From positions 1 through 51,538 of the IMG/VR virus record IMGVR_UViG_3300047453_000226: 51,538 nt of DNA. The stretch is one strand, 5' to 3'. Source of the DNA: a virus. Position numbers and translations under genes: made by a program. This document shows, one piece after another, positions 16,871-42,830 of the stretch. Within the stretch, counting starts at the first letter, position 1. The number at the start of each line of letters is the position of its first letter. The notes beneath the pieces are model-generated. The model was not told where the DNA came from and searched no databases. It was given only the letters and a program-made list of their open reading frames with translations.

Positions 16871-16877
16871 CTGCGTA

Positions 16878-16885
16878 CATAAATA
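16878..16885 (+). promoter_or_regulatory. Late promoter directly abutting ATG
   Basis: CATAAATA box with only TCTAT before the ATG at 16891. A leaderless late transcript of the glycan island is predicted. Confidence 0.6.
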
Positions 16886-16890
16886 TCTAT

Positions 16891-17667
16891 ATGGAACGCA
16901 TTGTATTAGTCACTGGTGGCTTTGATCCACTACACTCAGGGCATATCGCCTACTTTAAAGAAGCAAAAAAACTTGGCACCAAATTAGTTGTTGGTGTTAA
17001 CTCAGACGAATGGCTTGCTAGAAAGAAAGGCAAACACTTTATGCCTTTTCATGAAAGATGTTCTATTATAGAAGAACTATCCGTTGTTGATCAAGTTATA
17101 GGATTTAACGATGAAGATGATAGTGCATGTAATGCAATCTTTCAAACACTTAGTACACATAGCAACATTGAATTAATCTTTGCCAATGGCGGAGATAGAA
17201 CTAACACAACAACACCTGAATATAAAACATATGGTGATATGCCAAATGTAGAATTTGTATTTGGCGTTGGCGGCGAACACAAAATGAATTCAAGTAGTTG
17301 GATACTTGAAGAATGGAAGAATCCAAAAACTGTAAGAAACTGGGGTTGGTATAGAGTATTAGATGATCAACCTGAAAAAGGATACAAAGTCAAAGAGCTT
17401 GTAATACTTCCTGGCAAAAGTCTAAGCGATCAAAGACACAAATATAGATCAGAGATGTGGTATGTTACACAAGGACAAGTAACTATGGCTATTCAAATTG
17501 AAGGCGACCCTATTTCAGGGTTTGAGTTGCCTGCATTAACTAATAGTTACAATATTGGTAGTAACGTATGGCACAAGGCAATGAATAATAAAGATGTACC
17601 AGCACATGTTATTGAAGTACAGTTTGGTGAAAAGTGTGTTGAAGAAGATATAGAAAGAAGAGATTAA
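16891..17667 (+). CDS. Cytidylyltransferase-cupin fusion
   Basis: Residues 1 to about 145 form a nucleotidyltransferase domain of the glycerol-3-phosphate/heptose cytidylyltransferase type: V-T-G-G-F-D-P-L-H-S-G-H (HxGH-type site), V-V-G-V-N-S-D-E-W and a late S-S-S-W-I-L segment. Residues about 150-258 form a cupin resembling the C-terminus of type II mannose-6-phosphate isomerases (W-G-W-Y-R-V-L, K-Y-R-S-E-M-W-Y-V-T-Q-G). The fusion suggests activation of a sugar or polyol phosphate coupled to isomerisation. It begins the late-transcribed part of the island and overlaps the next start by one base (TAATG). Confidence 0.8.
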   Translation: MERIVLVTGGFDPLHSGHIAYFKEAKKLGTKLVVGVNSDEWLARKKGKHFMPFHERCSIIEELSVVDQVIGFNDEDDSACNAIFQTLSTHSNIELIFANGGDRTNTTTPEYKTYGDMPNVEFVFGVGGEHKMNSSSWILEEWKNPKTVRNWGWYRVLDDQPEKGYKVKELVILPGKSLSDQRHKYRSEMWYVTQGQVTMAIQIEGDPISGFELPALTNSYNIGSNVWHKAMNNKDVPAHVIEVQFGEKCVEEDIERRD

Positions 17668-18338
17668 TGAAAGTATTCATAGGCTACGACCCAAGAGAAG
17701 ATATGGCTTACCAAGTGTGTAAGCATAGCATATTAAAGCATCAACCTGATGCAGATGTACGCCCATTAGTACAAAAAGAATTAAGACAAGCAGGATGGTA
17801 CAAGCGTCCTGAAGATAAACTCGCATCAACAGAATTTACGTTTACACGCTTTCTTGTGCCAGAGCTTACTAACTTCAAAGGTTGGGCAGTGTTTATGGAT
17901 TGCGATATGATCCTTACCACAGACATTAAAAAATTATTTGATCAAGCAGATGACAAGTATGCTGTTATGTGTGTGCAACATGATTACACACCTAAAGAAG
18001 GTATTAAGATGGATGGACAAAAGCAAACTATCTATCCACGTAAGAACTGGTCAAGTGTTGTGTTATGGAACTGTGGTCATCCTAGTAATAGAGTTGTTGA
18101 CCAAGATCAAGTTAACAGTTTAGAATTAAATGGTGCATACTTTCATAGGTTTAGTTGGCTACAAGATGAAGAAATTGGCGAACTAGATCATACATGGAAC
18201 TACTTAGTAGGTGTGTACAACGATATTGAAAAACCTAAATTAATTCATTATACTGAAGGCGGCCCGTGGTTTGAAAATTATCGCGATTGTGAGTTTAATG
18301 AATTATGGAAACAAGAATTGTATGATATGTTTAAGTAA
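17667..18338 (+). CDS. Glycosyltransferase (GT8-like, DxD)
   Basis: The 223-residue protein starts M-K-V-F-I-G-Y-D-P-R-E and has the metal/nucleotide-sugar motif F-M-D-C-D-M-I-L near residue 80, then W-S-S-V-V-L-W-N-C and a final histidine-rich H-Y-T-E-G-G-P-W segment. This is the order found in small GT8-like transferases that move sugars from UDP donors. It is coupled to both neighbours (TAATG upstream, 17-nt overlap downstream). Donor and acceptor cannot be read from sequence. Confidence 0.8.
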   Translation: MKVFIGYDPREDMAYQVCKHSILKHQPDADVRPLVQKELRQAGWYKRPEDKLASTEFTFTRFLVPELTNFKGWAVFMDCDMILTTDIKKLFDQADDKYAVMCVQHDYTPKEGIKMDGQKQTIYPRKNWSSVVLWNCGHPSNRVVDQDQVNSLELNGAYFHRFSWLQDEEIGELDHTWNYLVGVYNDIEKPKLIHYTEGGPWFENYRDCEFNELWKQELYDMFK

Positions 18339-19113
18339 AAACAAAACAGATGAGTATGTAAACATGTATGCCAAAGGAGCAAAACTTCCTATATATGACT
18401 ACACTTATGCTCACGAAAATAAAAAAGAACCTATACTAATACGTAGTTTAGCAAAGCGAAAACTTATCTGGAAATGTTTAGAAACTAAAAGAGAGTTTTA
18501 TTATATGGACAGTGGTTACCTTGGTAATTACAAAAGTCCAATAAATGAAGGTGGATGGAAAATATTTCATCGTATAGTTAGAAACGGTCTACAACATAAT
18601 GCAATAATTGAACGTCCTAGTGATAGATGGGAACAACTAGGAATGAAAATTGCAAAAAGAAAGAAGACAGGACGAAACATTTTACTTGTTATGCCTAGTG
18701 AAAAACCTTGCAAGTATTATGGTATAGACGCAGAACAGTGGAAACAAGAAACAATAGATCAAATCAAAATGCATACTGATCGTCCTATTGTTATTAGAGA
18801 AAAACCACCAAGACATATACGAATGACAAATACTATATACAACGAGTTAGACAATGCATTTGCAATGGTAACATATCAAAGTATTGCCGCTGTAGAAAGT
18901 GTACTGTATGGAGTTCCAGCATTTACACTTGCTCCTACAGCCGCTGATCCTGTTGCAAATAAGTATTTGTACAATTTAGAAAACCCAGAGCGATACGACA
19001 AAGAGTATATATACAGTTGGGCATGCCACCTAGCGTATGGTCAGTTTCATATTGGCGAAATGAAAAATGGAACAGCTCACGACATGATAATGGAGGAACA
19101 TTATGGCAGTTAA
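18322..19113 (+). CDS. Capsule-type glycosyltransferase paralogue A
   Basis: I chose the ATG at 18322, which gives 263 residues beginning M-I-C-L-S-K. The body carries F-Y-Y-M-D-S-G-Y-L-G-N, H-R-I-V-R-N-G-L-Q-H-N, and the family signature T-D-R-P-I-V-I-R-E-K-P-P followed by A-M-V-T-Y-Q-S-I-A-A-V-E-S-V-L-Y-G-V-P-A. This second part is the hallmark of capsule-synthesis (KpsC/KpsS-like) transferases that bind CMP-Kdo or related donors. Three other copies of this signature occur in the window. It is the most divergent copy in having K-P-P in place of H-P. Confidence 0.65.
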   Translation: MICLSKNKTDEYVNMYAKGAKLPIYDYTYAHENKKEPILIRSLAKRKLIWKCLETKREFYYMDSGYLGNYKSPINEGGWKIFHRIVRNGLQHNAIIERPSDRWEQLGMKIAKRKKTGRNILLVMPSEKPCKYYGIDAEQWKQETIDQIKMHTDRPIVIREKPPRHIRMTNTIYNELDNAFAMVTYQSIAAVESVLYGVPAFTLAPTAADPVANKYLYNLENPERYDKEYIYSWACHLAYGQFHIGEMKNGTAHDMIMEEHYGS

Positions 19114-20020
19114 GTACGTAGTAGTTCATAGAGCTGATAAAAACAATCTCGGTGATATGTCAAGTAACCCGTTGCAATATTATTTGCCGGAACACGAATA
19201 CCAAGTAGTAGATATATTAGATCTTGCAACAGACAACTATCCAAGCGATGTCCCGTTAATTGCAGGAGGCGGTGGCCTTATTGCAAATGACTTCCTAGGA
19301 AATGACTTACAGTATGCTCTTAACAATAGTGATCAAAATGCACTAATGACACTTTGGAAAGAGTCTTGGAATGTTGTAAATCACAATAATATAGAAGCAC
19401 GTGATGGATTTTTACGCAAATTACAACCACTTGTAAAAGAATATTTAGACAAGTTAGACAACAGTACAGCACCACGTATTGTATGGGGAGCAGGACATAA
19501 CCAAGATACTAATAAAAGAGTTAAACGACCTGAGTGGCCAGATTGGTTAAGTAATTTTGATTTAGTTGGCGTAAGAGATTTTGGTCAACCATTCGAATGG
19601 GTACCTTGTGCAAGTTGTTTAGATGCAGCATTTGATAAAAATTATAGAATCAAAAATGATATAATTTGGTACGAACATAAAAAGCAATTAATAAAATCAA
19701 ACCATTTTGGAAAAACACCAATACCAAGATATATTAATAGTGGTGCTAACATGGAGCAAACTATTGAACTTTTAGCTAGTGCAAATACTATTATAACAAA
19801 CAGTTATCACGGTGCATATTGGGGTACATTGCTTGGTAAAAAAGTAATTGTAGCAGGACCTTGGAGTAGTAAATTCCATACACTAAAGCATAGAGTAACA
19901 TTTATAAATCCTCAAGATAACTTTGAATACTTGTTAGACAGTGTTGCAACATACCCCGAGGCATTACAAGAATGTAGAGATGCAAACAATAATCATTGGC
20001 GGAAAATACAGCAATTATGA
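19103..20020 (+). CDS. Polysaccharide pyruvyl transferase-like protein
   Basis: The 305-residue protein begins with a G-D-M-S-S-N-P segment, then L-I-A-G-G-G-G-L-I-A-N-D near residue 53, R-I-V-W-G-A-G-H-N near 128, V-G-V-R-D near 150, and a late I-I-T-N-S-Y-H-G-A-Y-W-G-T-L-L-G-K-K. This succession matches polysaccharide pyruvyl-transferase (CsaB-like) proteins, which add ketal pyruvate to surface glycans. A GGAGG ribosome site lies inside the previous gene. It is coupled to paralogue B by ATGA. Confidence 0.75.
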   Translation: MAVKYVVVHRADKNNLGDMSSNPLQYYLPEHEYQVVDILDLATDNYPSDVPLIAGGGGLIANDFLGNDLQYALNNSDQNALMTLWKESWNVVNHNNIEARDGFLRKLQPLVKEYLDKLDNSTAPRIVWGAGHNQDTNKRVKRPEWPDWLSNFDLVGVRDFGQPFEWVPCASCLDAAFDKNYRIKNDIIWYEHKKQLIKSNHFGKTPIPRYINSGANMEQTIELLASANTIITNSYHGAYWGTLLGKKVIVAGPWSSKFHTLKHRVTFINPQDNFEYLLDSVATYPEALQECRDANNNHWRKIQQL

Positions 20021-20931
20021 AGACAGTAGTAGGATATGCATCGGGTATACCAAACCCACACAAGAACCCACATAAGGTAGATATATTAAAAAGATATATT
20101 GACGGCGTACAAAAACACGGCGACAAAGGTATATTACATTATGGTAATAATATAATCGACAGTGACGTTAATTTAATACAAGGGTGGGTACATGCAGGCA
20201 GTCCATCTAGTCAACATTTAATTTTACGTAAACGTGCCCATGAGCAAAACATAAACAAAGGTAAACATAGTTTTATTGCTGACAGTAATCTTTTTAACTA
20301 TGCTGTAGGAAAAATGCACAACATGCAATATTTACGATACAGCATGGACGGTGTATTCCCTACAACAGGTAACTACTTTCAAGACACAGTTAACCCAAAA
20401 CGTTGGACACAAATACGCAAAGATCTTGGTATTAAAATGAAAGATTGGCGTCAATCGGGTGTACATGTATTGATATGTACACAACGTAATGGCGGCTGGA
20501 GTATGGGCGGACTTGATGTTGTTAGTTGGTTAAAGAACACAATTAACGAAGTTAGACAGCATACAGATAGGCCTATTGTTGTTAGAGGACACCCAGGAGA
20601 CAAACATGCACCTAAGTATCTTAAAAGCAAAGATTGGCAAGTAAGTACAGCACCTGGACTAACACAGGACTTACTCAACGCACATTGCACTATAACGTAC
20701 AACAGCAGTCCTAGTGTTGCAAGTGTTATCGAAGGCATACCTACGTATGTTACAGATCCTAATCCTCGTATTAGTCAAGCACATGCTGTTGCAAACACAG
20801 ATTTGTCTACAATAGAAACTCCGCAAACATTTGAAAGACAAGATTGGATAGAAAAACTTGCTATGTGTCACTGGAACTTTGACGAGCTAAGTTCGGGAGA
20901 GGCATGGGCACACATGAGAGATTACGTATGA
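20017..20931 (+). CDS. Capsule-type glycosyltransferase paralogue B
   Basis: The 304-residue protein starts at the ATG overlapping the upstream stop (ATGA). The C-terminal half has H-T-D-R-P-I-V-V-R-G-H-P-G-D, A-H-C-T-I-T-Y-N-S-S-P-S-V-A-S-V-I-E-G-I-P-T and A-H-A-V-A-N-T-D-L-S, the same scaffold as paralogues C and D. A W-x-x-S-G-V-H-V-L-I-C segment marks the start of the nucleotide-binding half. The fold is probably GT-B with a KpsS/KpsC-like donor site; specificity is unknown. Confidence 0.65.
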   Translation: MKTVVGYASGIPNPHKNPHKVDILKRYIDGVQKHGDKGILHYGNNIIDSDVNLIQGWVHAGSPSSQHLILRKRAHEQNINKGKHSFIADSNLFNYAVGKMHNMQYLRYSMDGVFPTTGNYFQDTVNPKRWTQIRKDLGIKMKDWRQSGVHVLICTQRNGGWSMGGLDVVSWLKNTINEVRQHTDRPIVVRGHPGDKHAPKYLKSKDWQVSTAPGLTQDLLNAHCTITYNSSPSVASVIEGIPTYVTDPNPRISQAHAVANTDLSTIETPQTFERQDWIEKLAMCHWNFDELSSGEAWAHMRDYV

Positions 20932-21878
20932 TAACAATGGTAGGGTTTCCCCCTCCTGCATCAAAGCCTTATTTTCATTGGGCAAAAGGTATGGAAAGAG
21001 TTGGCGACCAATATGTGGTATGTGACGACTTGCTTAGTAAAACTGTGCGTAGAGCTGATGCTTATTACCAAACAAACGAACTAAAGCCAAAGTTCCTACA
21101 TGGCGGCAGACACGCTTGGCACGGCAAGTATATGCTACACATACAGCAAGCAAACAAACCTTACATAGTCAGTGAAAGCGAACCATTTCGTGAATGTCCT
21201 GGCTGGTTACGATTTGGCTGGAATAGCTATCGTTGGTGCGATGCTAACTGGAATAATGAGAATGTAGGTCCTGAAAGATGGAATAGATTCCAAAGCCTCA
21301 CAGGATTAAAATTTAAAGACTGGCACAGCCCGGGTCAGAATATATTAATAATGGGACAAAAAGAAGGTGACAGTAGTTTGGTAAGTATATACAAAGCAGG
21401 GTATGCAAGTATATACGACTACATTGCAGAACAATGTAAACTTATTAGACAATACACCGATCGTCCTATAGTTATTAGACCACATCCTCGTAACTTAGAT
21501 AGAGGCGCAAAATTTGTTAATAAGATGTTGCAAGAGGTAAATGTTAAAAATATCTCAATGAGTCAAAACTTAACAAGAGGTGGATCACAAGGCGGAGAAG
21601 GACTAGATGCAGATCTAAGAAATGCTCATTGTGTTGTTACATATAACAGTTTGAGCGGAGTAGAAGCTGTAGTAAGAGGCATACCAGTGTTTGCACTAGA
21701 TGGCGGAAGTATGGCATATCCAGTAGCACACACAGATTTATCACAAATAGAAAATTTAAATTACGATATAGATTTGCAGGAATGGAAAAACAAGATTGCA
21801 TATTCTATGTGGAACAAAGAGGACGTACAAACAGGTGAATGTTGGTCTCATTTGAAGCAAGTATACTTTAAGGATTAA
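20928..21878 (+). CDS. Capsule-type glycosyltransferase paralogue C
   Basis: The 316-residue protein (ATGA start coupled to B) has Y-T-D-R-P-I-V-I-R-P-H-P-R-N, then A-H-C-V-V-T-Y-N-S-L-S-G-V-E-A-V-V-R-G-I-P-V and Y-P-V-A-H-T-D-L-S-Q-I-E. These motifs correspond to the donor-binding half of the capsule-synthesis family. The N-terminal half, presumed acceptor domain, differs widely from B, so the copies may act on different acceptors. Adjacent tandem placement suggests duplication within the phage lineage. Confidence 0.7.
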   Translation: MITMVGFPPPASKPYFHWAKGMERVGDQYVVCDDLLSKTVRRADAYYQTNELKPKFLHGGRHAWHGKYMLHIQQANKPYIVSESEPFRECPGWLRFGWNSYRWCDANWNNENVGPERWNRFQSLTGLKFKDWHSPGQNILIMGQKEGDSSLVSIYKAGYASIYDYIAEQCKLIRQYTDRPIVIRPHPRNLDRGAKFVNKMLQEVNVKNISMSQNLTRGGSQGGEGLDADLRNAHCVVTYNSLSGVEAVVRGIPVFALDGGSMAYPVAHTDLSQIENLNYDIDLQEWKNKIAYSMWNKEDVQTGECWSHLKQVYFKD

Positions 21879-21880
21879 GA

Positions 21881-22564
21881 ATGTTAAGAGAAATATTTAC
21901 TAGGTTAACTAAAAGATGTGATAAGTTTCAACACTACTTTCCGTTATATGAAAAGCACTTTAACAAGTACGTAGGCAAAAGTCCACGCATACTAGAGATA
22001 GGTGTACGTGGAGGCGGCAGTTTACAAATGTGGCAAAAATACTTTGGCGAAGGTACATATGTACATGGTATTGACATAGATGCAAAGTGCAAAGCACACG
22101 AAGACATAGACAATAACATACATGTTACAATAGGAGATGCTACAGATCCTGTGTTTGTTGAAAGAGAAATGAAAGCACTTAACATAAGAGAATTTGATAT
22201 TATAATTGATGACGGAAGTCACGAAAACCAAGATCAAATTACAACATTAAAACTATTTTACAGTTTATTAAAATCAGAAGGTGTATACTGGTGTGAAGAT
22301 ACTCACACAAGTTATTATCCAAATAGAGAAGACGGCGGCTACGGTAATCCAAAAAGTTTTACAAGTTATGTTAAGAATGTAGTAGACGTATTAAGTCATC
22401 ATCATACAAGTCATGCTATAGGACACGGACCTATAGACGGACCACATGTACCAAAAAAGTTTGTAAAACCATTTAACGATATACAATGCGTAAGTTTTTA
22501 TGACAGTGTAATTGTAATTGACAAAGGACCAAGATTGCATTTTAAACGGATTGTTAAAAAATGA
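21881..22564 (+). CDS. Class I SAM-dependent methyltransferase
   Basis: The 227-residue protein has motif I R-I-L-E-I-G-V-R-G-G-G-S near residue 37, an acidic loop H-G-I-D-I-D, and I-I-D-D-G-S-H near residue 108, followed by Y-W-C-E-D-T-H-T-S-Y. The I-D-D-G-S-H plus E-D segment is typical of metal-dependent sugar O-methyltransferases (macrocin/MycE-type). It lies 2 nt after paralogue C and overlaps the next gene by ATGA, so it probably modifies the product of the same glycan pathway. Confidence 0.75.
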   Translation: MLREIFTRLTKRCDKFQHYFPLYEKHFNKYVGKSPRILEIGVRGGGSLQMWQKYFGEGTYVHGIDIDAKCKAHEDIDNNIHVTIGDATDPVFVEREMKALNIREFDIIIDDGSHENQDQITTLKLFYSLLKSEGVYWCEDTHTSYYPNREDGGYGNPKSFTSYVKNVVDVLSHHHTSHAIGHGPIDGPHVPKKFVKPFNDIQCVSFYDSVIVIDKGPRLHFKRIVKK

Positions 22565-23787
22565 ATTCATGGGATGTCTTTGATACACTAATTGGAAGAT
22601 TACATTTCCATCCGCACTCTATTTTTGACGAAGTAAGTAGTCGAATAGGTGATGCAAGTTTTAAAGACAAACGTATATCTGCATGGAAACAAGTTAAGAA
22701 AACATGCACTGATAAAACCTACAAAGAGATATATGACATACTAACTGAGTACGATCCACAAGTAGAATTAGACGTAGAGTTTGAACATAACTTTCCTATA
22801 TATGAAAATATTATGAAGGTTAAAGACGGAGATCTATTGATAAGCGACATGTACTTGCCAGCAGACTTCATAATGAAAATGTTACGTAATGCCGGACTAA
22901 CAGCAGATGTAAAGATAGTTGTTACAGCAGACGGCAAGAAAAAAGGTTGGATTTGGGATAGTATAAATGAAAACTATAACATCGATAATCACTACGGTGA
23001 CAATGAAAAAAGCGATGTTAAGTCTGCACAAGCACACGGCATAAATGGTGTACTGTACACAGGATACAAACTTAACGATATAGAAAACTTTGTTTACAAG
23101 TACGATAGACAACTTGCATGTTGGATGCGTAGTGTAAGATTGATGTGTCCATTCAACGATGAAAGACATATTAAATTTTGGAACGATCAAGCAAATATTA
23201 ACTTACCTGTACTAGCATTAGCAACATTAGAATTACCTGATACACCTATTGCATTTACATATAGAGATTGTTATAACTGGCAAAAGATATACGAAGCAAT
23301 GACTGGTAAGCAAGGTCACAGACTAGATGTATCACGTAAAATGTATCTTACACCAAACGAACACTTTGCAAAATATATGGAGTTTGTTAAAGATATAGGC
23401 GCAACTATTGTAGATATGCAAGGTAAAGGTCGTAGTATACAAAGTTTTTATAATGGTAATCCTCCAAGCACAACATACATAGGAGGAAAGCCTCCACCAT
23501 ATGTAACACGTCTAGTAAACTACCAAACAAAAAGTATGGAAAAACATAATTGTTTTGAAGAAGGTCCTATTGTAGATTGGAATGAAAATGGTCCAATAAG
23601 AGGCAATAATGATCATCCTGCTGATGTAGCAGACATACATAAAAAAGCAGGTCAAGCCGCTACACGTTATATAAGACATTTTAATTTTAAAAAAGATACA
23701 AACTTATTGACAGAATTAGTTAAGTTATATGATACACATAATTTTACTAATAAGAATGTTAAATGGGAAAAATATAACGGTGCATGA
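22561..23787 (+). CDS. HAD-superfamily hydrolase-like protein
   Basis: The 408-residue protein starts M-N-S-W-D-V-F-D-T-L-I-G-R, the D-x-F-D-T HAD motif I, and has D-L-L-I-S-D-M-Y-L-P (motif II region) and V-T-A-D-G-K-K-K-G-W (motif III Lys). The remaining 230 residues are unfamiliar and may form a second domain. Proteins of this shape occur in surface-polysaccharide loci. A phosphatase acting on a sugar phosphate, possibly Kdo-8-phosphate (no KdsC was seen), is conceivable but speculative. The gene is coupled on both sides. Confidence 0.65.
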   Translation: MNSWDVFDTLIGRLHFHPHSIFDEVSSRIGDASFKDKRISAWKQVKKTCTDKTYKEIYDILTEYDPQVELDVEFEHNFPIYENIMKVKDGDLLISDMYLPADFIMKMLRNAGLTADVKIVVTADGKKKGWIWDSINENYNIDNHYGDNEKSDVKSAQAHGINGVLYTGYKLNDIENFVYKYDRQLACWMRSVRLMCPFNDERHIKFWNDQANINLPVLALATLELPDTPIAFTYRDCYNWQKIYEAMTGKQGHRLDVSRKMYLTPNEHFAKYMEFVKDIGATIVDMQGKGRSIQSFYNGNPPSTTYIGGKPPPYVTRLVNYQTKSMEKHNCFEEGPIVDWNENGPIRGNNDHPADVADIHKKAGQAATRYIRHFNFKKDTNLLTELVKLYDTHNFTNKNVKWEKYNGA

Positions 23788-24298
23788 TGTTACAAGACAT
23801 AGACTTACAAAGGACTTTTGGTCTAATGAAGTAGAGTGTTATCGTAGATTACAGTCTTGCGATAATGTTCCTAATCTAATTAATGCCAACGAAAAAGACT
23901 TAACAATAACAACAGCATATGCAGGAACAAGTTTGTTTATCTTAACAGCAGTACAAAAAAGACAAGGTAAAAAACTTATAATAGATAACCCAGTACAACA
24001 AGTTAGAACTTTTATCGATGCTTGTAAAGAACAAAACATTGTACATTTAGATTGTCATCCAGGTAATATATTACTACAAAATGGCAAACTTTCTTTTATA
24101 GATTTTGAAAAAGTTGCAATAGACGAAAAGACATTAACTACAAAATTACAAAAGAAATATTCAAAGTTTAAAACAAGAGGCGGTTGGGGCTGGATACTAA
24201 ATAGATATACACAGTACTTCGAAACGTTCGACAATCGTATATGGTATAGGGACGATATACTAGAAAAAGGAATTAGGAAATATGGCCAAGCACTATAG
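23756..24298 (+). CDS. Small kinase-like (APH/RIO-type) protein
   Basis: I take the ATG at 23756 inside the HAD gene's end, giving 180 residues. The catalytic loop H-L-D-C-H-P-G-N-I-L-L (near residue 99) and the metal motif F-I-D-F-E (near 117) match aminoglycoside-phosphotransferase and lipopolysaccharide-kinase proteins. The N-lobe is short: a helix with N-E-V-E-C-Y is visible, but no clear glycine-rich loop. It could phosphorylate a glycan core. It overlaps the following methyltransferase by 17 nt. Confidence 0.65.
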   Translation: MLNGKNITVHDVTRHRLTKDFWSNEVECYRRLQSCDNVPNLINANEKDLTITTAYAGTSLFILTAVQKRQGKKLIIDNPVQQVRTFIDACKEQNIVHLDCHPGNILLQNGKLSFIDFEKVAIDEKTLTTKLQKKYSKFKTRGGWGWILNRYTQYFETFDNRIWYRDDILEKGIRKYGQAL

Positions 24299-24824
24299 TA
24301 AATTTACAAATAATTATACTAAAATTTATTACAAAGGTAAACTAATATCAGAAGGTTCACGTGATCCATTAGAACGTATACAAGCAATGCCTATTGACTT
24401 TAAAGATAAAACTCTATTAGACTTAGGTTGTAATTGTGGCGGTACAATGTTTGCTGTTGCAGATCAAATTAAACAAGGTTGGGGCTGTGATATTAATCCT
24501 GATGCAATTAGTTTTGCAAACAATTTAGCAAAAGAAAATAATATTGACAATGTTAGTTTTAGTGTTGCAGATTTAAACAATTGGCAAAAATATAATTTGC
24601 CTAAAACAGATATATTATTTGCACTAGCAATAGCAAAATGGGTTCCTACATGGAAAGAAATAATTACACACCTTGATCCTAAAGTATGTGTGTTTGAAGC
24701 ACACGGCAAAGGAAGTATGGTACCTGATCAAGTTGCTTGGTTAACTAATCATTTTAAAAGTGTAAAAGTAATACTTGATGGATACGAAGCAGGCAAACGT
24801 AGACTTTATCTTTGTGTCCAGTAA
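24282..24824 (+). CDS. Class I SAM methyltransferase (180 aa)
   Basis: The SAM motif L-L-D-L-G-C-N-C-G-G-T is near residue 46, followed by G-C-D-I-N-P-D-A-I (adenosine-ribose acidic residue) and I-L-F-A-L-A-I-A-K-W. This is a complete minimal Rossmann methyltransferase. No substrate clue exists beyond its place at the end of the rightward glycan operon. It converges with the next gene, overlapping its 3' end by 19 nt. Confidence 0.75.
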   Translation: MAKHYSKFTNNYTKIYYKGKLISEGSRDPLERIQAMPIDFKDKTLLDLGCNCGGTMFAVADQIKQGWGCDINPDAISFANNLAKENNIDNVSFSVADLNNWQKYNLPKTDILFALAIAKWVPTWKEIITHLDPKVCVFEAHGKGSMVPDQVAWLTNHFKSVKVILDGYEAGKRRLYLCVQ

Positions 24825-31539: not shown

Positions 31540-31760
31540 GACATAAATTAGCAGGCGTACTATTCTTACTATTAGGAATATACTTTTTAATACCAGACTT
31601 AATGCCACCTTCAATGGGTGCAGGTGCGGCAATGGAACACGAAATGACGACACATAATAATACATTATTAGGCATTGGCGAAATGACTTGGATGTGGTTT
31701 ACAATGGCACTAGTACATTTTATTATACGTGATTGTAACTGTAAGGAGTGTTGTAAGTGA
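31536..31760 (+). CDS. Small membrane protein (74 aa)
   Basis: Starting at the ATGA overlap with the oxygenase, the protein has one hydrophobic segment at about 5-24 (G-V-L-F-L-L-L-G-I-Y-F) and a second near 50-65 (M-T-W-M-W-F-T-M-A-L-V), then C-N-C-K-E-C-C at the end. The two helices would form a hairpin, and the terminal cysteine cluster could bind metal or form disulfides. The family is not recognised. It is coupled to kdsA by GTGA. Confidence 0.65.
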   Translation: MRHKLAGVLFLLLGIYFLIPDLMPPSMGAGAAMEHEMTTHNNTLLGIGEMTWMWFTMALVHFIIRDCNCKECCK

Positions 31761-32530
31761 GAATAATTGCAGGACCATGTCAGCACGAATCATTACCACA
31801 AAGTTTAGAGATTGCTAAAGAGTGTAAACGAGTATGTGACAAGTACGGCATTGAATACTACTTCAAAGCAAGTTACGATAAAGCTAACCGTACAAGCGCA
31901 AATGGTGTTCGTGGTCTAGGATTAGAAACAACACTAACAGACTTCTTAGCACTTAAAGTAGAACTAGGTGTAAAGACACTAACTGATGTACACGACTACG
32001 TACAAGTAAACCGTATTGAACGTGAGTTTAAAGATGCTGTTGACGTTTATCAAATACCAGCATTTCTTTGTAGACAGACTGACTTAATACAAGCAGCTTG
32101 TGCTACAGATAAAATTGTTAATATTAAGAAAGGCCAGTTTATGGCGCCTTGGGATATGAAAGGTGTGATAAGTAAAACTGAAGAAGCAAAAGAAGTTTGG
32201 ATAACTGAACGAGGAACTAGTTTTGGATATAATACTCTTGTCGTGGATTTCACTGGTCTACAGTATATGCTTGATAATTATGATGTGCCTATCGTGTTGG
32301 ATGGTACTCACGCCGTACAAAAGCCGGGAGGACAAGGTGACTCTAGTGGCGGTAATCGTAATTATGTGCCTGGGATCACTCGTGCTGGGGCTGCTATTGG
32401 GATCGACTCCTTCTTTATGGAAGTACATGCTGAGCCTGATGTAGCACCAAGTGACGGACCTAACATGCTATACCTAAAAGACTTTGAGGAGGTAGTACGT
32501 GACATCATCAGCTATTCTTATACCCGCTAG
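31757..32530 (+). CDS. kdsA: 3-deoxy-D-manno-octulosonate 8-phosphate synthase KdsA
   Basis: The 257-residue enzyme starts with GTG and carries the KdsA motifs in order: I-A-G-P-C-Q-H-E-S, F-K-A-S-Y-D-K-A-N-R-T-S, Y-Q-I-P-A-F-L-C-R-Q-T-D-L, N-I-K-K-G-Q-F-M-A-P, D-G-T-H-A-V-Q-K-P-G-G and M-E-V-H-A-E-P. It condenses arabinose-5-phosphate with phosphoenolpyruvate to Kdo-8-phosphate, the committed step to Kdo for LPS or capsule. The retained loops suggest an active enzyme; it is about 27 residues shorter than E. coli KdsA. kdsB overlaps its 3' end. Confidence 0.95.
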   Translation: MRIIAGPCQHESLPQSLEIAKECKRVCDKYGIEYYFKASYDKANRTSANGVRGLGLETTLTDFLALKVELGVKTLTDVHDYVQVNRIEREFKDAVDVYQIPAFLCRQTDLIQAACATDKIVNIKKGQFMAPWDMKGVISKTEEAKEVWITERGTSFGYNTLVVDFTGLQYMLDNYDVPIVLDGTHAVQKPGGQGDSSGGNRNYVPGITRAGAAIGIDSFFMEVHAEPDVAPSDGPNMLYLKDFEEVVRDIISYSYTR

Positions 32531-33194
32531 ATACGGTAGTACACGTTTTCCAGGAAAGCCACTAGCACCACTACATAACATTCCAATGGTACGTATGGTG
32601 TACGAACAATGTCGTAAGTCTGGCATTGATACATATGTTCTAACAGACGACATGCGTATCTTTAACAGGTTTGGTCCTGAAGTATGTTGGATCGAAGAAG
32701 AACATATTGCACCTTATAAGAACGGTACTGAACGATGTGCAGGTGCTATTACTAAATGGGACAAACTAAAAAAGTATGACCAATTTATTAATGTGCAAGG
32801 CGATATGCCTGACGTATCAGCTTATATGATACAAAGTGTATACCATCAATTAAAACATTATCAAGTAACAACAGCATTTACAGATATGCCTCCATGTATG
32901 CAAGGTGATCCTAATACAGTTAAGATGATACGTGCTGGAGATCAAGCACTATGGTTTGCTAGAGGTATTACAGGATACGGTGATTGGCACTTAGGCATAT
33001 ACGGATACAAACGTAAAGCATTAGAAATGTACCCTAGCCTTGCTGTCCCAGAAGAGGAAACTATAGAACAATTAGAACAACTCCGTTGGTTAAAAAACGG
33101 TTGTAATATTGGCTGTTTGAGTGTACAATATAATGGAGTAGAAATAAATTCACCAGAGGACGTAGAAACATGGCACAACAAAAACTCCCAATAA
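32499..33194 (+). CDS. kdsB: CMP-Kdo synthetase KdsB
   Basis: The 231-residue enzyme starts with GTG inside kdsA (32-nt overlap). It has the cytidylyltransferase N-terminus I-P-A-R-Y-G-S-T-R-F-P-G-K-P-L, N-G-T-E-R-C-A (usual form S-G-T-D-R), and N-V-Q-G-D-M-P-D-V. KdsB activates Kdo with CTP, giving the donor for Kdo transferases. The pair kdsA-kdsB suggests the phage supplies CMP-Kdo; the Kdo-8-phosphate phosphatase and arabinose-5-phosphate isomerase were not seen and would be host-provided. A substitution at the usual Glu after Q-G-D (Met here) is worth noting. Confidence 0.9.
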   Translation: MTSSAILIPARYGSTRFPGKPLAPLHNIPMVRMVYEQCRKSGIDTYVLTDDMRIFNRFGPEVCWIEEEHIAPYKNGTERCAGAITKWDKLKKYDQFINVQGDMPDVSAYMIQSVYHQLKHYQVTTAFTDMPPCMQGDPNTVKMIRAGDQALWFARGITGYGDWHLGIYGYKRKALEMYPSLAVPEEETIEQLEQLRWLKNGCNIGCLSVQYNGVEINSPEDVETWHNKNSQ

Positions 33195-36265: not shown

Positions 36266-37405
36266 ATGGATACTCGTATACACGAGATTTTAGATAAAGA
36301 AGTAGATAGACAGGCTACTACAATCGAATTAATAGCAAGTGAAAACTTTGCAAGCAACAGCGTTATGGAACTAAGTGGCAGTGTGTTTACAAACAAATAC
36401 GCTGAGGGTTATCCAGGCAAGCGTTACTACAACGGCTGTGAACATATGGATGAAATAGAAGCACTTGCTGTAGATGAACTATGCAAATTGTTTAAGTGTG
36501 ACTATGCTAACGTACAACCACACTGTGGTGCAAATGCTAACACGGCAGTGTACCAAGCATTCCTAAAGCCGGGTGATACTATACTAGGTATGGACCTAGC
36601 AAGTGGAGGTCACCTAAGTCACGGTAGTCCGCCAAACATCTCAGGCAAAGTGTATAGTGCCTGTAGTTACAAAGTAAAAGCAGACGGCTACTTAGACTAT
36701 GATCAGATTGAACAACTGTGTAAAGACTATCGTCCTAAGATGATTGTTGCTGGTGCAAGTGCGTATCCAAGACAAATTAATTGGGAAGTATTTAGAAAAC
36801 TAGCAGACAAATACAATGCATTACTACTGGTTGATATGGCGCACTACAGCGGTCTTATAGCAGGCGGAGCATACCAGTCGCCACTAGCATATGCGGATGT
36901 GGTAACAAGTACAACACACAAGACCTTACGCGGTCCTAGAGGTGGTATTATACTGTGGAACAACCCAGACTATACAAAGCGTATTAATAGTGCAATCTTC
37001 CCTGGCACACAAGGCGGACCATTGATGCATCAAATTGCAGCCAAGGCACAATGTTTCATAGAAGCAAACACACCCGAGTTTAAAGATTATGCAAAGCAAG
37101 TAGTAGTTAATGCAAAAGCAATGTGTGCTGTGTTTAAGGACAAAGGATTTAAATGCTTGACAAATGGAACAGATTCGCATATAATATTACTAGACTTGAG
37201 TGATAGCAAATACAGCGGAAGAGAGGCTGCTGACTTGTTGGAAGAAAATGGTATTACTGTAAACAAAAATGGTGTACCAAATGATCCAAGAAGTTTTGTT
37301 GAAACAAGCGGTATTAGAATTGGAACAGCAGCAGAAACAACTCGTGGTCATAACGAGCAATGGTTTAAGGAACTAGCGGAAAACATATGCCAGATATTGA
37401 CATAG
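36266..37405 (+). CDS. glyA: Serine hydroxymethyltransferase GlyA
   Basis: The 379-residue PLP enzyme matches bacterial SHMT through I-E-L-I-A-S-E-N-F, E-G-Y-P-G-K-R-Y-Y-N-G-C, V-Q-P-H-C-G-A-N-A-N, H-L-S-H-G, V-D-M-A-H-Y-S-G-L-I-A-G and T-S-T-T-H-K-T-L-R-G-P-R-G-G, with K219 as the PLP lysine. It interconverts serine and glycine and makes methylene-tetrahydrofolate for thymidylate. Bacterial SHMT is about 417 aa; the short end is mainly C-terminal. No other one-carbon gene is in the window. An RBS (AGAGGT) precedes the ATG. The last 19 nt overlap the next gene. Confidence 0.95.
   Translation: MDTRIHEILDKEVDRQATTIELIASENFASNSVMELSGSVFTNKYAEGYPGKRYYNGCEHMDEIEALAVDELCKLFKCDYANVQPHCGANANTAVYQAFLKPGDTILGMDLASGGHLSHGSPPNISGKVYSACSYKVKADGYLDYDQIEQLCKDYRPKMIVAGASAYPRQINWEVFRKLADKYNALLLVDMAHYSGLIAGGAYQSPLAYADVVTSTTHKTLRGPRGGIILWNNPDYTKRINSAIFPGTQGGPLMHQIAAKAQCFIEANTPEFKDYAKQVVVNAKAMCAVFKDKGFKCLTNGTDSHIILLDLSDSKYSGREAADLLEENGITVNKNGVPNDPRSFVETSGIRIGTAAETTRGHNEQWFKELAENICQILT
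37157..37185 (+). promoter_or_regulatory. Consensus sigma70 promoter inside glyA
   Basis: TTGACA (37157-37162), 17-nt spacer, TATAAT (37180-37185): 12 of 12 match. It lies about 200 nt upstream of the mini-PolIII-alpha gene and could drive it early. Confidence 0.65.
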
Positions 37406-38415: not shown

Positions 38416-39192
38416 ATGTCACTTATACCTAGATATTTAGTCAATAACAGAACCAGCCTTGTTACCAATGTGACAGGATTCACAACGGAGTATAGACCAG
38501 TGTACCAAAGAAACATACCAATATATAGTGGAATAGATAATAAATTAGAATTCCAATTATTCAATCCAGATCAAAAGCCAATTAATCCAACTGGCTCAAC
38601 AATACATTTTGTAGCATTTGATGAAGCAAACAATCAAGTAATTAAACATACCGGAACAGTAACGATTGCCAACAAAGGTTTGTTTACAGTTACAATTACA
38701 GATCAGGACACTCTTAATTTAAAGCAACAGTATTTGTCTTACGCAATTTACTTAACAGACGACACAACTAATGCTGACACTATTACATATGCAGACGAGC
38801 AACTAAATGCATCAGGTACAATCTATGTTAGTAAAGAAGCATTCCCTGGTCCACGTGAAACTTCTGAAGTAACAAACTTTACACAAGACAGTGGTGACGT
38901 TGATGTATACAACAGCGATGCTATATCAGCAGAGCCAGGTATAAATGGTAACGAAGCATTACACACTGTTGCAATATACAGTGACAACTATGTAGGTGAT
39001 GTAGAACTACAAGTAACACTTGATAATCAAATTACAAATCAAAGTAACTGGGCAACAATTACTACACTTACATTAGACGGTACTGAAACAGAACCTACGG
39101 TAAGTAGTTTTAATGGTGTTTACAACTACATTAGATTCTCTACTTCAACAAACCCAGCAGAGAAAATTTCTAAGATTTTAGTAAGAAACTAA
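38416..39192 (+). CDS. Virion adhesin/baseplate-associated protein (258 aa)
   Basis: The N-terminal 130 residues have an Ig-like, BppU-type plan (R-N-I-P-I-Y-S-G-I-D-N-K-L-E-F-Q-L-F-N, then V-K-H-T-G-T-V-T, L-S-Y-A-I-Y-L-T-D-D), and the second part is a beta-rich Asn/Thr-rich domain (H-T-V-A-I-Y-S-D-N-Y-V-G-D-V-E-L-Q-V-T). It looks like a tail or fibre accessory protein, and late expression is supported by a consensus promoter. The start codon has no Shine-Dalgarno. A glycosyltransferase gene follows with no gap. Confidence 0.6.
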   Translation: MSLIPRYLVNNRTSLVTNVTGFTTEYRPVYQRNIPIYSGIDNKLEFQLFNPDQKPINPTGSTIHFVAFDEANNQVIKHTGTVTIANKGLFTVTITDQDTLNLKQQYLSYAIYLTDDTTNADTITYADEQLNASGTIYVSKEAFPGPRETSEVTNFTQDSGDVDVYNSDAISAEPGINGNEALHTVAIYSDNYVGDVELQVTLDNQITNQSNWATITTLTLDGTETEPTVSSFNGVYNYIRFSTSTNPAEKISKILVRN

Positions 39193-39921
39193 ATGTCAAC
39201 TACATATGTTACTACATTTTCTAAAGATCACCTTGAGCTTTATGGTAATAGATTTCTACAAAGTTTTACTAATTTTAGTAATGACCCATTAGTTTTATAT
39301 GCAGAAGAATTTACTTGGAACAATAGTTTAGATTTTAATTCTACTATTCCTGAACATATAGAATTTAAAAAGCATATAGACTATCTTCTATCTAAAACAA
39401 AAGATAAAAAAGAAATTGCGAGATTAAAAAAAGCTCTTAGGTGGAGTTATAAAAGTTTTGCAATTATACATGCCTTGGAAAATTTAAACACTGATTATGT
39501 AATATGGATAGACGGTGATGTTGAAACTGTAGGGAAAGTACCTAAAGATCTTGCAAAAAAATTATGCGGTGACAAACTATTGTTTGGATACAAACAGAAA
39601 ATTAAACAAGAGCTACATATAGAATCAGGATTTGTAGTGTTTAATTTGAAACATCCTAGAATAAAAAGAATATTACAAATGTATAAATTAGGATATTATT
39701 TTAAACAAGTTCTTGATTTGCCAAAGCCATGGGACGGATTTTGGTTAGCGCATATGTGCGAAATTAAAAAAATTAGAAAAGAGGCAATACTTTCTAATGC
39801 ACCTTTTAAGAGTATTAAAAATAGTTTTGTACATCATGTAGGTAAAGATAAATTTAAAGATTTAGATTTCGACAAATATTTAGTCGACAAATATTTAGGA
39901 AGAAATAACTTGACAAAGTAA
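39193..39921 (+). CDS. Glycosyltransferase (DxD family, copy 2)
   Basis: The 242-residue protein starts T-T-Y-V-T-T-F-S, has L-Y-G-N-R-F-L-Q-S-F and L-Y-A-E, and a Y-V-I-W-I-D-G-D-V-E (DxD) segment near residue 111. It is a paralogue of the leftward gene at 24806-25651. It begins directly after the adhesin stop, so it is cotranscribed with a virion gene and may glycosylate a virion protein or the host surface. The -35 box of the receptor promoter lies in its last codons. Confidence 0.7.
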   Translation: MSTTYVTTFSKDHLELYGNRFLQSFTNFSNDPLVLYAEEFTWNNSLDFNSTIPEHIEFKKHIDYLLSKTKDKKEIARLKKALRWSYKSFAIIHALENLNTDYVIWIDGDVETVGKVPKDLAKKLCGDKLLFGYKQKIKQELHIESGFVVFNLKHPRIKRILQMYKLGYYFKQVLDLPKPWDGFWLAHMCEIKKIRKEAILSNAPFKSIKNSFVHHVGKDKFKDLDFDKYLVDKYLGRNNLTK

Positions 39922-39938
39922 TATAATTACGTTATAAT
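39910..39938 (+). promoter_or_regulatory. Consensus sigma70 promoter fused to receptor ATG
   Basis: TTGACA (39910-39915), 17-nt spacer, TATAAT (39933-39938), 12 of 12 match. The ATG at 39945 is 6 nt past the -10 box, where transcription should start, so a leaderless mRNA is predicted. Confidence 0.85.
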
Positions 39939-39944
39939 AAGCGT

Positions 39945-41681
39945 ATGAAAAATAAATATAACCTCGTAGCTGCATTCTGTGCGGCTTTTTTAATGACCCC
40001 AGTATATGCAACAGAGCTAGTAATATATGTATACGCTGACCGAACACCTTCATCTGTTGCTAGTGCTACATATTCGTATGATGCAGTTGAAGTAGAAGAC
40101 CTTGAAGAAGTATCTAGTTTAGATATTTTGAGAAGTGGACCAAAAGGACAAATGAGTTCCTTATATATAAGAGGCGCTGATAGCGATCAGAGTCTTATAA
40201 CCCTAAATGGTATTTCCATTAAAGACCAGAGTAGCCCAACAGGCACAGACGATCTTGGACAACACAACTTTACAGGAATTAGTCTTGTTGAAGTATACAA
40301 AGGTCCAATGAGCAGTTTGTATGGTGCTAATGCCGCAGGTGGTGTAGTTAACCTTGTGTCTGATGTTACAGGAAGATCATATGTATCATCTACAATAGGT
40401 AGTAACAATTTGCTACTCGGCGAAACACAACTATCTGGTAAAGTAGAAGATATAAATTATTCGCTTACACTTGGAAAGGAAACTAGTGATGGCATAAGTG
40501 TATATCCAAACGGTGAAGAAACTGATCCTTACGATAATGAAAATATTAATTTAAACTTATTGTATGCAACTGATACTACTAATGTAAAATTAAATTATAT
40601 TAACGAAACTAATTTTACAAACTTAGATTCTATGTATGACACATTAAATTATACAGGTAAGTGGAATTGGACAAATACACAACTTGACATAAGCAACGAA
40701 ACATCAAGATTTGTTTTAAACAATTCATCGCATAACAGAGTTTACACAAAAGATAATTTAGTAGAAGGAGACTACGACAGCACAGTAAACACATTATACG
40801 GTTCACGTTTAATTAAACTATCTAATACAGATTTAATAGTTGGCGCAGAGCTTGAAGAAATAGATGCTACATTTTTAACTAACATAAGAGGCATGTGGCC
40901 TTACACAAGTAGTGTAGATAAAGAACGTACTTCGAAAGGTGTGTTTGCTAATACTAATACAATGATGTTAAATTCTACAATAATATCTGCAGGTGTTAGA
41001 CATGATAGTGTCGACGGCTTTGGCGATCGTACTACAGGTAGATTAGGTGTGTATAAAGATAATGTGAGAGCTAGTATAGCAACTGGTTATAGAATACCTA
41101 CACTGTATGAAATGTACGGACAAGACAACTACGGCTTTAGTGGCAATCCTAATTTACAAGAAGAAAGCACACTTAGTTACGAAGTAGGTTATCAAACAAA
41201 CTATACTAACACAGCATTGTTTATTACAAAAGAAACAGATGCAATAATATATAACGGAACATATGTTAATGACATTGATACTAGTTACACCAAAGGTATT
41301 GAAAATAAAATATCATTCGAACTAAATGACTTCTTTATTACAAATAGTTTTAGTTACATAGAAGCAAAACAAAGTAACGGAAACGAAAAGTTAAGACGTC
41401 CTAAGTTTAATAATAATTTAAAAGTAGCAAAACTAGTTAACGATATTGCATATTCGTTTGCTGTAGACTATTACGGTAAGCACAAAGATATCGATAGTAC
41501 AACATATCAAACTATTGATGTAGGAAGTGTAATAACGTATAACTCAGAAATAAAGTACAATAAAAATAATTTAGAAGTCTTTGCTGGGATATATAATATT
41601 AGTAATGAACAATATGAAAGACCAGACGGGTATAGTCAATTAGGACGAAACTTTAAGTTGGGCTTCAGGAAATACTTTTAA
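39945..41681 (+). CDS. BtuB-like TonB-dependent outer-membrane receptor
   Basis: The 578-residue protein has a signal peptide (hydrophobic A-A-F-C-A-A-F-L-M with V-Y-A cleavage site near 22), a TonB-box-like E-L-V-I-Y-V, and a plug domain with S-L-Y-I-R-G-A-D, T-L-N-G-I-S-I and G-P-M-S-S-L-Y-G-A-N-A-A-G-G-V-V-N-L. A full barrel follows (Y-R-I-P-T-L-Y-E-M-Y-G, G-N-P-N-L-Q-E-E, L-R-R-P-K, N-I-S-N-E-Q-Y-E, R-K-Y-F at the end). Segment order matches E. coli BtuB, the vitamin B12 receptor (mature 594 aa). It appears intact. A perfect sigma70 promoter precedes it. Ligand is unproven. Confidence 0.9.
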   Translation: MKNKYNLVAAFCAAFLMTPVYATELVIYVYADRTPSSVASATYSYDAVEVEDLEEVSSLDILRSGPKGQMSSLYIRGADSDQSLITLNGISIKDQSSPTGTDDLGQHNFTGISLVEVYKGPMSSLYGANAAGGVVNLVSDVTGRSYVSSTIGSNNLLLGETQLSGKVEDINYSLTLGKETSDGISVYPNGEETDPYDNENINLNLLYATDTTNVKLNYINETNFTNLDSMYDTLNYTGKWNWTNTQLDISNETSRFVLNNSSHNRVYTKDNLVEGDYDSTVNTLYGSRLIKLSNTDLIVGAELEEIDATFLTNIRGMWPYTSSVDKERTSKGVFANTNTMMLNSTIISAGVRHDSVDGFGDRTTGRLGVYKDNVRASIATGYRIPTLYEMYGQDNYGFSGNPNLQEESTLSYEVGYQTNYTNTALFITKETDAIIYNGTYVNDIDTSYTKGIENKISFELNDFFITNSFSYIEAKQSNGNEKLRRPKFNNNLKVAKLVNDIAYSFAVDYYGKHKDIDSTTYQTIDVGSVITYNSEIKYNKNNLEVFAGIYNISNEQYERPDGYSQLGRNFKLGFRKYF

Positions 41682-41806
41682 TGAAAGATTTAACAAAACA
41701 ACCTGCCTTTTGGGCAGGTTTACTCTTAGCATCACCAGTTATCTATTATGTATTATATAGACTAGCATTAGAAATTTGGTGTATTGCTTACGGATTAATT
41801 TACTAA
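41681..41806 (+). CDS. Small single-span membrane protein (41 aa)
   Basis: The frame starts TAATG at the receptor stop and encodes one hydrophobic helix (about residues 10-28, F-W-A-G-L-L-L-A-S-P-V-I-Y-Y) with a short aromatic tail. A terminator-like hairpin is embedded in it, which could mean the ORF is accidental, but the composition is strongly membrane-like and the start is coupled. Confidence 0.45.
   Translation: MKDLTKQPAFWAGLLLASPVIYYVLYRLALEIWCIAYGLIY
41700..41724 (+). terminator. Terminator-like hairpin after receptor gene
   Basis: AACCTGCC and GGCAGGTT form an 8-bp perfect stem with a TTTTG loop, followed by a weak T-run. Confidence 0.5.
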
Positions 41807-41814
41807 AAAAACAC

Positions 41815-41843
41815 TTGACTTTTAACCTGCACGAGTATATAAT
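41815..41843 (+). promoter_or_regulatory. Sigma70 promoter fused to primase ATG
   Basis: TTGACT (41815-41820), 17-nt spacer, TATAAT (41838-41843); ATG at 41850 is 6 nt after the -10. Same geometry as the receptor promoter; leaderless mRNA predicted. Confidence 0.8.
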
Positions 41844-41849
41844 GATACT

Positions 41850-42830
41850 ATGAGTGTAGTCATTGAAACAGTTCTGACATATCTGCCTGCTAAGAGGAAA
41901 ACAACTCCTAGCGGCTGGACTTCATTCAATGCACCTTGCTGTATTCATAACGGTGAGACCCGTGATCAGAAACAGCGTGGAGGTGTAATTCAAGAAGGTG
42001 GCGGCATCAGTTATCATTGTTTTAACTGTGGCTTTAAGTCTTCTTGGCAACCAGGCAGACCATTCTCTCATAAATTGCGTAAACTCCTACAATGGTTAGG
42101 AGCACCTGATGACGTAGTCAACAAGGTTGCATTTGATGTTATGAGAGAGAACGAGGGTGTTGAAGTAAAGCAAAGACTTGCTGAGCTTCCTACGTTTGAT
42201 ACAGTGCCATTGCCCGATGATGCTATAAAGATTACAGACATTACAAACTTTGACAAGTACAGTATGGCTGTTCTCGAATACATGGCCGCACGTAACCTTA
42301 ACACTGATGATACCAATTACTATTGGTCACCTAGTTTAGGTTATCGTGATAGACTAATCATACCATTCTATTATGAAGATAGAGTTGTAGGCTGGACTGG
42401 GCGTAGTGTACTTCCGGATAAGAAACCTAAATACTTAACGGAAGTACAACCTGGATTTGTTTACGGACTAGATGAGCAACGCTATTCTAAAATGTTTGCA
42501 ATAGTATGCGAAGGACAACTAGATGCTATACACGTAGAAGGTTGTGCATTAGGTGGCAGTGAAATAAGCGACCAACAAGCAATGCTATTAGGTAAACTAC
42601 AAAAAGATATTATAGTAGTTCCTGATAGAGATAAAGCAGGTAGCAAGTTAGTAGAACGTGCTATTGAACTAGGGTATAGTGTTAGCATGCCCGAATGGAA
42701 ACAAGGCATCAACGATATAGGTGATGCTGTACATGAATATGGAAGACTGTATGCACTACACAGCATAGCAGCTGTAGCAGAAGAGTCTCCTTTGAAAATA
42801 AGACTGAGAGCAAAGAAATGGTTCGATTAA
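41850..42830 (+). CDS. gp61: DNA primase gp61
   Basis: The 326-residue protein has a zinc-binding module (C30-C31, H33, then C57-F-N-C60) and a TOPRIM centre near residue 212 (A-I-V-C-E-G-Q-L-D-A-I) with V-P-D-R-D-K-A-G downstream. This is the T7/T4-type primase core. It makes RNA primers for the lagging strand together with helicase gp41 encoded downstream. Length near T4 gp61 (342 aa). No Shine-Dalgarno; the promoter abuts the ATG. The stop overlaps the next small gene. Confidence 0.92.
   Translation: MSVVIETVLTYLPAKRKTTPSGWTSFNAPCCIHNGETRDQKQRGGVIQEGGGISYHCFNCGFKSSWQPGRPFSHKLRKLLQWLGAPDDVVNKVAFDVMRENEGVEVKQRLAELPTFDTVPLPDDAIKITDITNFDKYSMAVLEYMAARNLNTDDTNYYWSPSLGYRDRLIIPFYYEDRVVGWTGRSVLPDKKPKYLTEVQPGFVYGLDEQRYSKMFAIVCEGQLDAIHVEGCALGGSEISDQQAMLLGKLQKDIIVVPDRDKAGSKLVERAIELGYSVSMPEWKQGINDIGDAVHEYGRLYALHSIAAVAEESPLKIRLRAKKWFD

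Follow-up and report, generated by a model that had tools for sequence, protein, structure and literature searches.

A BtuB-like outer-membrane receptor gene in a marine phage and its possible part in corrinoid import

Introduction

BtuB, the vitamin B12 receptor, is one of the TonB-dependent receptors (TBDRs) that serve as receptors for phages and colicins, and a study of how phage Gifsy-1 targets receptors reportedly names it often (PMC12312913). The calcium cage of BtuB is made up of five aspartates, and loops L2-L5 have a role (PMC7360065). On the phage side, the cobS gene of marine T4-like phages is an auxiliary metabolic gene annotated to B12 metabolism (PMC9301287). The literature that we searched yielded no phage-encoded BtuB. 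The only BtuB-length matches among 50,697 records of named phages were bacterial contigs, misfiled or probably so, and a library of predicted viral proteins held only one other TBDR, the 805-aa SusC-like protein A0A8D9FQQ5 of an uncultured marine phage.

Here we describe a receptor gene in a 51,538-nucleotide stretch of viral DNA (IMG/VR record IMGVR_UViG_3300047453_000226), the whole of which is referred to as the window. A sequence-only reading had proposed that a phage-carried, BtuB-like receptor is encoded there, and this is now backed by its sequence and fold, by synteny and by a large number of independent contigs. The gene has its own promoter and is coupled to that of a 41-aa peptide, the pair lying between two conserved phage genes. 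We put at roughly 70% the probability that this arrangement is a cassette, carried by the phage and expressed early, for the import of corrinoid (vitamin B12).

Results

The features of the locus are collected in Table 1. The gene encodes a complete outer-membrane receptor, as had been claimed, with a signal-peptide-like start, a Ton-box-like segment, a plug, 22 strands and a phenylalanine as its C-terminal residue. Both Pfam domains scored over their cut-offs (Plug PF07715, 53 bits; TonB_dep_Rec_b-barrel PF00593, 87 bits) and the top PDB sequence matches were BtuB (E about 1e-22). The top NCBIfam model was TIGR01779 (TonB-B12), which gave 160 bits where the cut-off is 600; because this score lies under the equivalog cut-off, the receptor is BtuB-like and not a BtuB equivalog. 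Models of haemin and siderophore TBDRs matched it too, weakly. In the alignment with BtuB the segment ELVIYVYA appears to line up with DTLVVTA, and the Ton-box-like segment has a mean pairwise identity of 0.41 among 22 phage members. The AlphaFold2 model, for which 30 homologues were the input, had a mean pLDDT of 84 and a pTM of 0.85, with residues 1-30 disordered. The claimed likeness to BtuB held up in this model: it has a plug, DSSP counted exactly 22 strands in the barrel, and the first 11 Foldseek matches in the PDB were all BtuB, with TM-scores mostly of 0.77-0.84 (about 0.82-0.84 for the top ones).

Table 1. Features of the receptor locus, with positions counted from the first nucleotide of the window.
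Feature	Position	Strand	Basis or remark
Left slot flank, beta-sandwich / virion-structural-like gene	38416..39192	+	PHROG 14467; left neighbour in 79 loci
Extra slot gene, glycosyltransferase-like by eye	39193..39921	+	Weak similarity to W24806-25651 homologues
Consensus sigma-70 promoter TTGACA-17-TATAAT	39910..39938	+	6 bases before receptor ATG
BtuB-like TonB-dependent outer-membrane receptor (TBDR), 578 aa	39945..41681	+	ATG start; Pfam, NCBIfam, PDB, AlphaFold2, Foldseek
Signal-peptide-like N-terminus MKNKYNLVAAFCAAFLMTPVYAT, residues about 1-23	39945..40013	+	Cleavage site placed by eye; ends at 40013, Ton-box-like part from 40014 onward
Ton-box-like segment ELVIYVYADRTPS, residues 24-36	40014..40052	+	Alignment with BtuB DTLVVTANR
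Plug domain, residues 45-140	40077..40364	+	Pfam PF07715 over residues 53-134; model
22-strand beta-barrel, residues 146-577	40380..41675	+	PF00593; DSSP strand count
Extracellular loop 2 and first residue of strand 4, residues 185-194	40497..40526	+	Alignment with BtuB
Extracellular loop 3, residues 227-235	40623..40649	+	Alignment with BtuB
41-aa single-transmembrane peptide MKDLTKQPAFWAGLLLASPVIYYVLYRLALEIWCIAYGLIY	41681..41806	+	ATG overlaps receptor stop codon (TAATG)
Primase promoter TTGACT-17-TATAAT	41815..41843	+	Same leaderless geometry as receptor promoter
Right slot flank, DNA primase	41850..42830	+	TIGR01391, phrog_47

The window carries genes for a tail sheath, a tail tube, terminase, a gp32-like protein, UvsX, UvsY, primase and helicase. 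Its earlier description as a T4-like phage stands as far as the phage is concerned; the close kinship with T4 does not, since terminase and UvsX are nearest to those of jumbo phages. The terminase is 53% identical to that of Pseudomonas jumbo phage PA5oct, the closest being 287-kb Pseudomonas phages, and for the UvsX homologue the identity is 66%, to the protein of Sinorhizobium phage Phosso (469 kb). Near relatives of the window measure 262 and 358 kb, so that the window most likely represents part of the genome of a marine jumbo-type myovirus. At least 47 IMG/VR viral contigs were found to have relatives of the receptor, with identities of 31-94%, and further ones were located via the small peptide. 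The window also has a set of surface-sugar genes (31757-32530, 32499-33194 and 16187-24824), encoding a member of the DAHP/KDO8P-synthase family, a cytidylyltransferase (KdsB-like by order), an FkbM methyltransferase, a polysaccharide pyruvyl transferase, glycosyltransferases and a WaaP-like kinase fragment; this set suggests that the phage remodels the polysaccharide of the cell surface.

The positions of the BtuB calcium cage, which we take to be 179, 193, 195, 230 and 241 of the mature E. coli protein, could be followed in the receptor. E192 and D194 align with D193 and D195 in the region of extracellular loop 2, and D228 and D232, both invariant in 30 members, align with D230 and D241 in loop 3; S185 aligns with D179, making the fifth position a serine. 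An acidic residue occupies positions 193, 195, 230 and 241, four of the five, in 18 of 18 phage members compared. Among 22 divergent members no part of the barrel is better conserved than the extracellular loops, whose mean pairwise identity is 0.57 as against 0.38 in the strands and 0.22 in the periplasmic turns (0.54 in the plug). Between pairs of receptors dN/dS is 0.06-0.17, and for window pairs it is 0.09-0.13 over the extracellular loops.

This pattern bears on the possibility, raised in the sequence-only reading, that the protein blocks competing phages or colicin-like agents. It might do so as a BtuB-like decoy at the cell surface, or by titrating TonB in a form of superinfection exclusion. 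The use of BtuB and other TBDRs as receptors by such agents, the early-type promoter and the place of the gene in a variable cassette slot would all suit a decoy. However, the conserved loops, the retained cage acids and the low dN/dS favour import of a ligand over a decoy, as judged from these alignments, because the reverse would be expected of a surface decoy caught in an arms race, which should vary in the very loops that purifying selection has conserved here. The Ton-box-like segment and the plug have been kept as well, and a coupled membrane-protein gene of a kind drawn from cobalamin operons would have no role in exclusion. Blocking of other phages or colicins is thus not favoured, and we consider it improbable.

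The coupled gene is a consistent feature of these loci. Either DUF6580 or a small transmembrane peptide of 36-41 aa adjoins or overlaps the TBDR gene in 43 of 44 loci, the single locus without such a partner being one where the contig is cut near the gene, and the two are never found together beside one TBDR. The sister phages have DUF6580 next to the TBDR and the window does not: DUF6580 lies downstream of the TBDR at L032-L040 and L054 and upstream of it at L048-L053, L057, L059-L061 and L063, while the peptide lies downstream in the window clade and upstream at L041-L046 and L056. In the tree the window clade is sister to the phages with DUF6580 downstream, and the L041 clade falls among those with DUF6580 upstream; the simplest reading would be that, on two or more occasions, one partner took the position of the other. 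The peptide was rejected as a fragment of DUF6580 when hhalign found no homology between the two, and that of the window matched no Pfam or PHROG family. It was also rejected as an exclusive partner of the TBDR, being common in phages that have no TBDR: its motif LELWC[IL][AT]YG was found at over 100 viral loci (L188-L267 included), podovirus-like contigs without a TBDR among them.

DUF6580 itself is predicted to have six to seven helices. A fold search gave no significant PDB match, and its identity as an ECF S-component was not supported (PanT, TM 0.48, E about 6). It occurs in 8 of 13 TBDR-positive records and in one of 16 relatives that had been selected through their primase (Fisher p 0.003), a comparison that is uncorrected for phage phylogeny, draws on records that may be fragments and is not strictly with TBDR-free phages, as G052 of the second group carries a divergent TBDR. 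In one phage contig (L161:5124-5962) the same slot has DUF6580 and a 120-aa exported protein in place of the TBDR. There is also a second, very divergent type of phage TBDR of 467-529 aa (L160:4466-5957, L222, L257 and L259), likewise coupled to a small LELWC peptide; the L160 copy is about 23% identical and sits in the same slot.

Bacteria supply a context for DUF6580, which is present in 185 of the 295 Bacteroidia genomes sampled. We inspected the 12-kb neighbourhoods of 20 Bacteroidia DUF6580 genes, picked mostly from high-scoring matches on long contigs and not at random, and found a cobalamin riboswitch less than 6 kb from DUF6580 at nine of them; about 0.07 such cases were expected by chance because the 20 genomes have only 24 cobalamin riboswitches in all (binomial p about 1e-17). 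The other 11 loci had no riboswitch nearby. The usual order is riboswitch, BtuB-like TBDR and DUF6580, followed by BtuF-like, CobU, Dph6-like or CobT genes, these later ones being named by eye. Its place in riboswitch operons, whose order of TBDR then DUF6580 recurs in sister phages, is the strongest pointer to a corrinoid substrate, though an indirect one, and the DUF6580 partner together with the Bacteroidota cobalamin-riboswitch operons lends strong indirect support to the proposal that the phage receptor takes up B12.

The same operons weigh against a receptor for some other scarce nutrient (haem, a siderophore or another cofactor) that would feed phage enzymes rich in iron, for instance radical-SAM proteins and 2OG-Fe oxygenases. 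Sister phages with up to nine radical-SAM genes, the 2OG-Fe(II) oxygenase encoded in the window and the weak matches to haemin and siderophore models are in keeping with such a role, but BtuB is the top match in both sequence and fold, the calcium-site acids are common to the receptor and BtuB, and DUF6580 is tied to cobalamin riboswitches. Import of a different nutrient is accordingly a rather unlikely function.

Corrinoid import raises the question of a consumer, for which the sequence-only reading had proposed a B12-dependent phage enzyme. Those relatives that have a ribonucleotide reductase encode nrdA and nrdB, a B12-independent class I enzyme, and a search for the B12-dependent class II enzyme as consumer found none among these phages. 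Proteins with a B12-binding domain are encoded in 8 of 17 TBDR-positive records and in 1 of the 16 primase-chosen relatives, counts that are uncorrected for phylogeny and come from records that may be fragments; the ones examined also have radical-SAM domains. Radical-SAM genes are clustered, with 5-9 to a phage, in the records of L040, L054, L045, L056, L057 and L060 (G020, G029, G023, G031, G032 and G034), most of which have at least one B12-binding domain. The available sequence of the window and of its 115-kb relative G006 has no B12-binding domain, and for the window the likeliest beneficiaries are B12 enzymes of the host such as methionine synthase. A full-length serine hydroxymethyltransferase is encoded at 36266-37405 (Pfam E 5e-149); it would suit a phage that makes demands on folate and methyl metabolism, and proves nothing.

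The strict promoter pattern has two matches in the window, at the receptor and primase genes, where 0.02 were expected. Fifteen window-clade loci have the same arrangement 5' of the TBDR, and at L032-L040 and L054 the receptor gene is preceded by near-consensus versions. Because the promoter sits only six bases from the ATG, the receptor mRNA would be nearly or fully leaderless, and we infer that it is transcribed early by the polymerase of the host. The primase has a promoter of its own, which shows that the cassette is inserted between two independent units. Consensus sigma-70 promoters 5-6 bp before an ATG recur in this phage group (39910-39947 and 41815-41852 in the window; also G006 and G029), implying that leaderless early mRNAs may be common to it. 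The TTGACA/TATAAT promoter differs from the known Bacteroidota consensus, and for this reason the host of the window's phage is probably not a member of the Bacteroidota. Riboswitch control of the phage receptor was rejected, as Rfam had no match to the cobalamin riboswitch (RF00174) within the window.

The closest large relative, G006, is syntenic with the window across the whole region. In 79 close-relative loci with both flanking genes the slot is almost empty (no more than 60 bp) in 56, holds a TBDR and the small peptide in four and has other or no large inserts in 19; the extra gene beside the receptor in the window has no Pfam or PHROG match. That the DNA is phage sequence and not a host contaminant was borne out by these loci. 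The probability that the receptor gene reflects host contamination or chimeric assembly, or is a passenger in decay that does nothing for the phage, is negligible: the records are metagenomic and one relative lies in a Flavobacteriaceae-binned contig, yet the same slot with phage genes on both sides recurs in contigs of several samples, promoter and gene coupling are conserved, dN/dS is low (0.06-0.17) and, in the phylogeny that the sequence-only reading had called for, 98% of bootstrap trees separate 22 phage rows from 10 bacterial ones, the bacteria being sampled in Bacteroidia only and the phage records, all metagenomic, being possibly incomplete. The genome-contig scans for a nearest bacterial relative gave only that binned contig, L063 (PACV01000025.1, from a Flavobacteriaceae MAG bin), whose neighbours (phage-like structural fragments, a radical-SAM gene and a DUF6580-TBDR pair) look like those of a phage contig in a MAG; it is probably a misbinned phage contig.

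Discussion

Our findings suggest a pathway in which host RNA polymerase would transcribe the receptor gene early in infection. The receptor would then be exported to the outer membrane, where cobalamin would be bound in a calcium-ordered extracellular pocket and, by way of the host's TonB, handed to the periplasm. In the sister phages DUF6580, a multi-pass membrane protein, may carry the cobalamin into the cytoplasm; in the phage of the window this step would fall to an inner-membrane transporter of the host, assisted by the peptide or not. The extra B12 would feed the methionine synthase, folate and SAM metabolism of the host while the phage replicates in B12-poor seawater, and in several sister phages it may also reach cobalamin-binding radical-SAM proteins. 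Counting against such an import cassette are the score below the BtuB equivalog level, the replacement of D179 by serine, the lack of a riboswitch in the window and, in the available sequence, the lack of DUF6580 or a B12-binding protein in the window clade.

A bolder proposal is that a jumbo phage lineage has a complete vitamin import route across both membranes, in which a 36-41-aa peptide replaced DUF6580 in at least two branches and a single helix is able to take over or recruit inner-membrane corrinoid transport. This we regard as doubtful.

Phage auxiliary genes are mostly those of cytoplasmic enzymes; here there is a putative outer-membrane importer together with a membrane-protein gene. 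If the import reading is true, a phage of lytic type gives its host new means of scavenging a vitamin whose synthesis is beyond many marine bacteria, and viral infection is tied to B12 limitation in the sea. The reading also supplies DUF6580, a family with no assigned function, with a substrate that can be tested, and points to a repeatedly selected role for the 41-aa membrane peptide.

Among known systems, BtuB (TIGR01779; PDB 1NQG, 1NQH and 2GSK) shares with the phage receptor the 22-strand barrel and the plug and, to judge by alignment, may also share a Ton box at the N-terminus and the calcium-cage acids at four of five positions, in loops 2 and 3. The two differ in that the phage protein has about 20% identity to BtuB in structural alignment, falls under the equivalog cut-off and has serine for D179; unlike BtuB, it is phage-borne, has no riboswitch and is coupled to a membrane peptide. 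The order of TBDR then DUF6580 in the Bacteroidota cobalamin operon is common to sister phages G029, G017, G018, G016 and G020, but where that operon runs from TBDR and DUF6580 to BtuF-like, CobU and CobT genes the phage version is cut down to the receptor and one membrane gene. A sigma-70-type promoter stands in the phage cassette where the operon has its riboswitch, and in the window the 41-aa peptide takes the place of DUF6580. TBDR-like proteins had appeared in phage sequence before, in the form of A0A8D9FQQ5 (TonB-dependent receptor SusC) and PHROG 5687; the former is SusC-like, 805 aa long and 13% identical to the window receptor, and the latter is a 760-position profile annotated as of unknown function. 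Like cobS, the phage receptor is a marine-phage gene annotated to B12 metabolism, but cobS belongs by annotation to biosynthesis in the cytoplasm, whereas the receptor belongs to uptake at the outer membrane.
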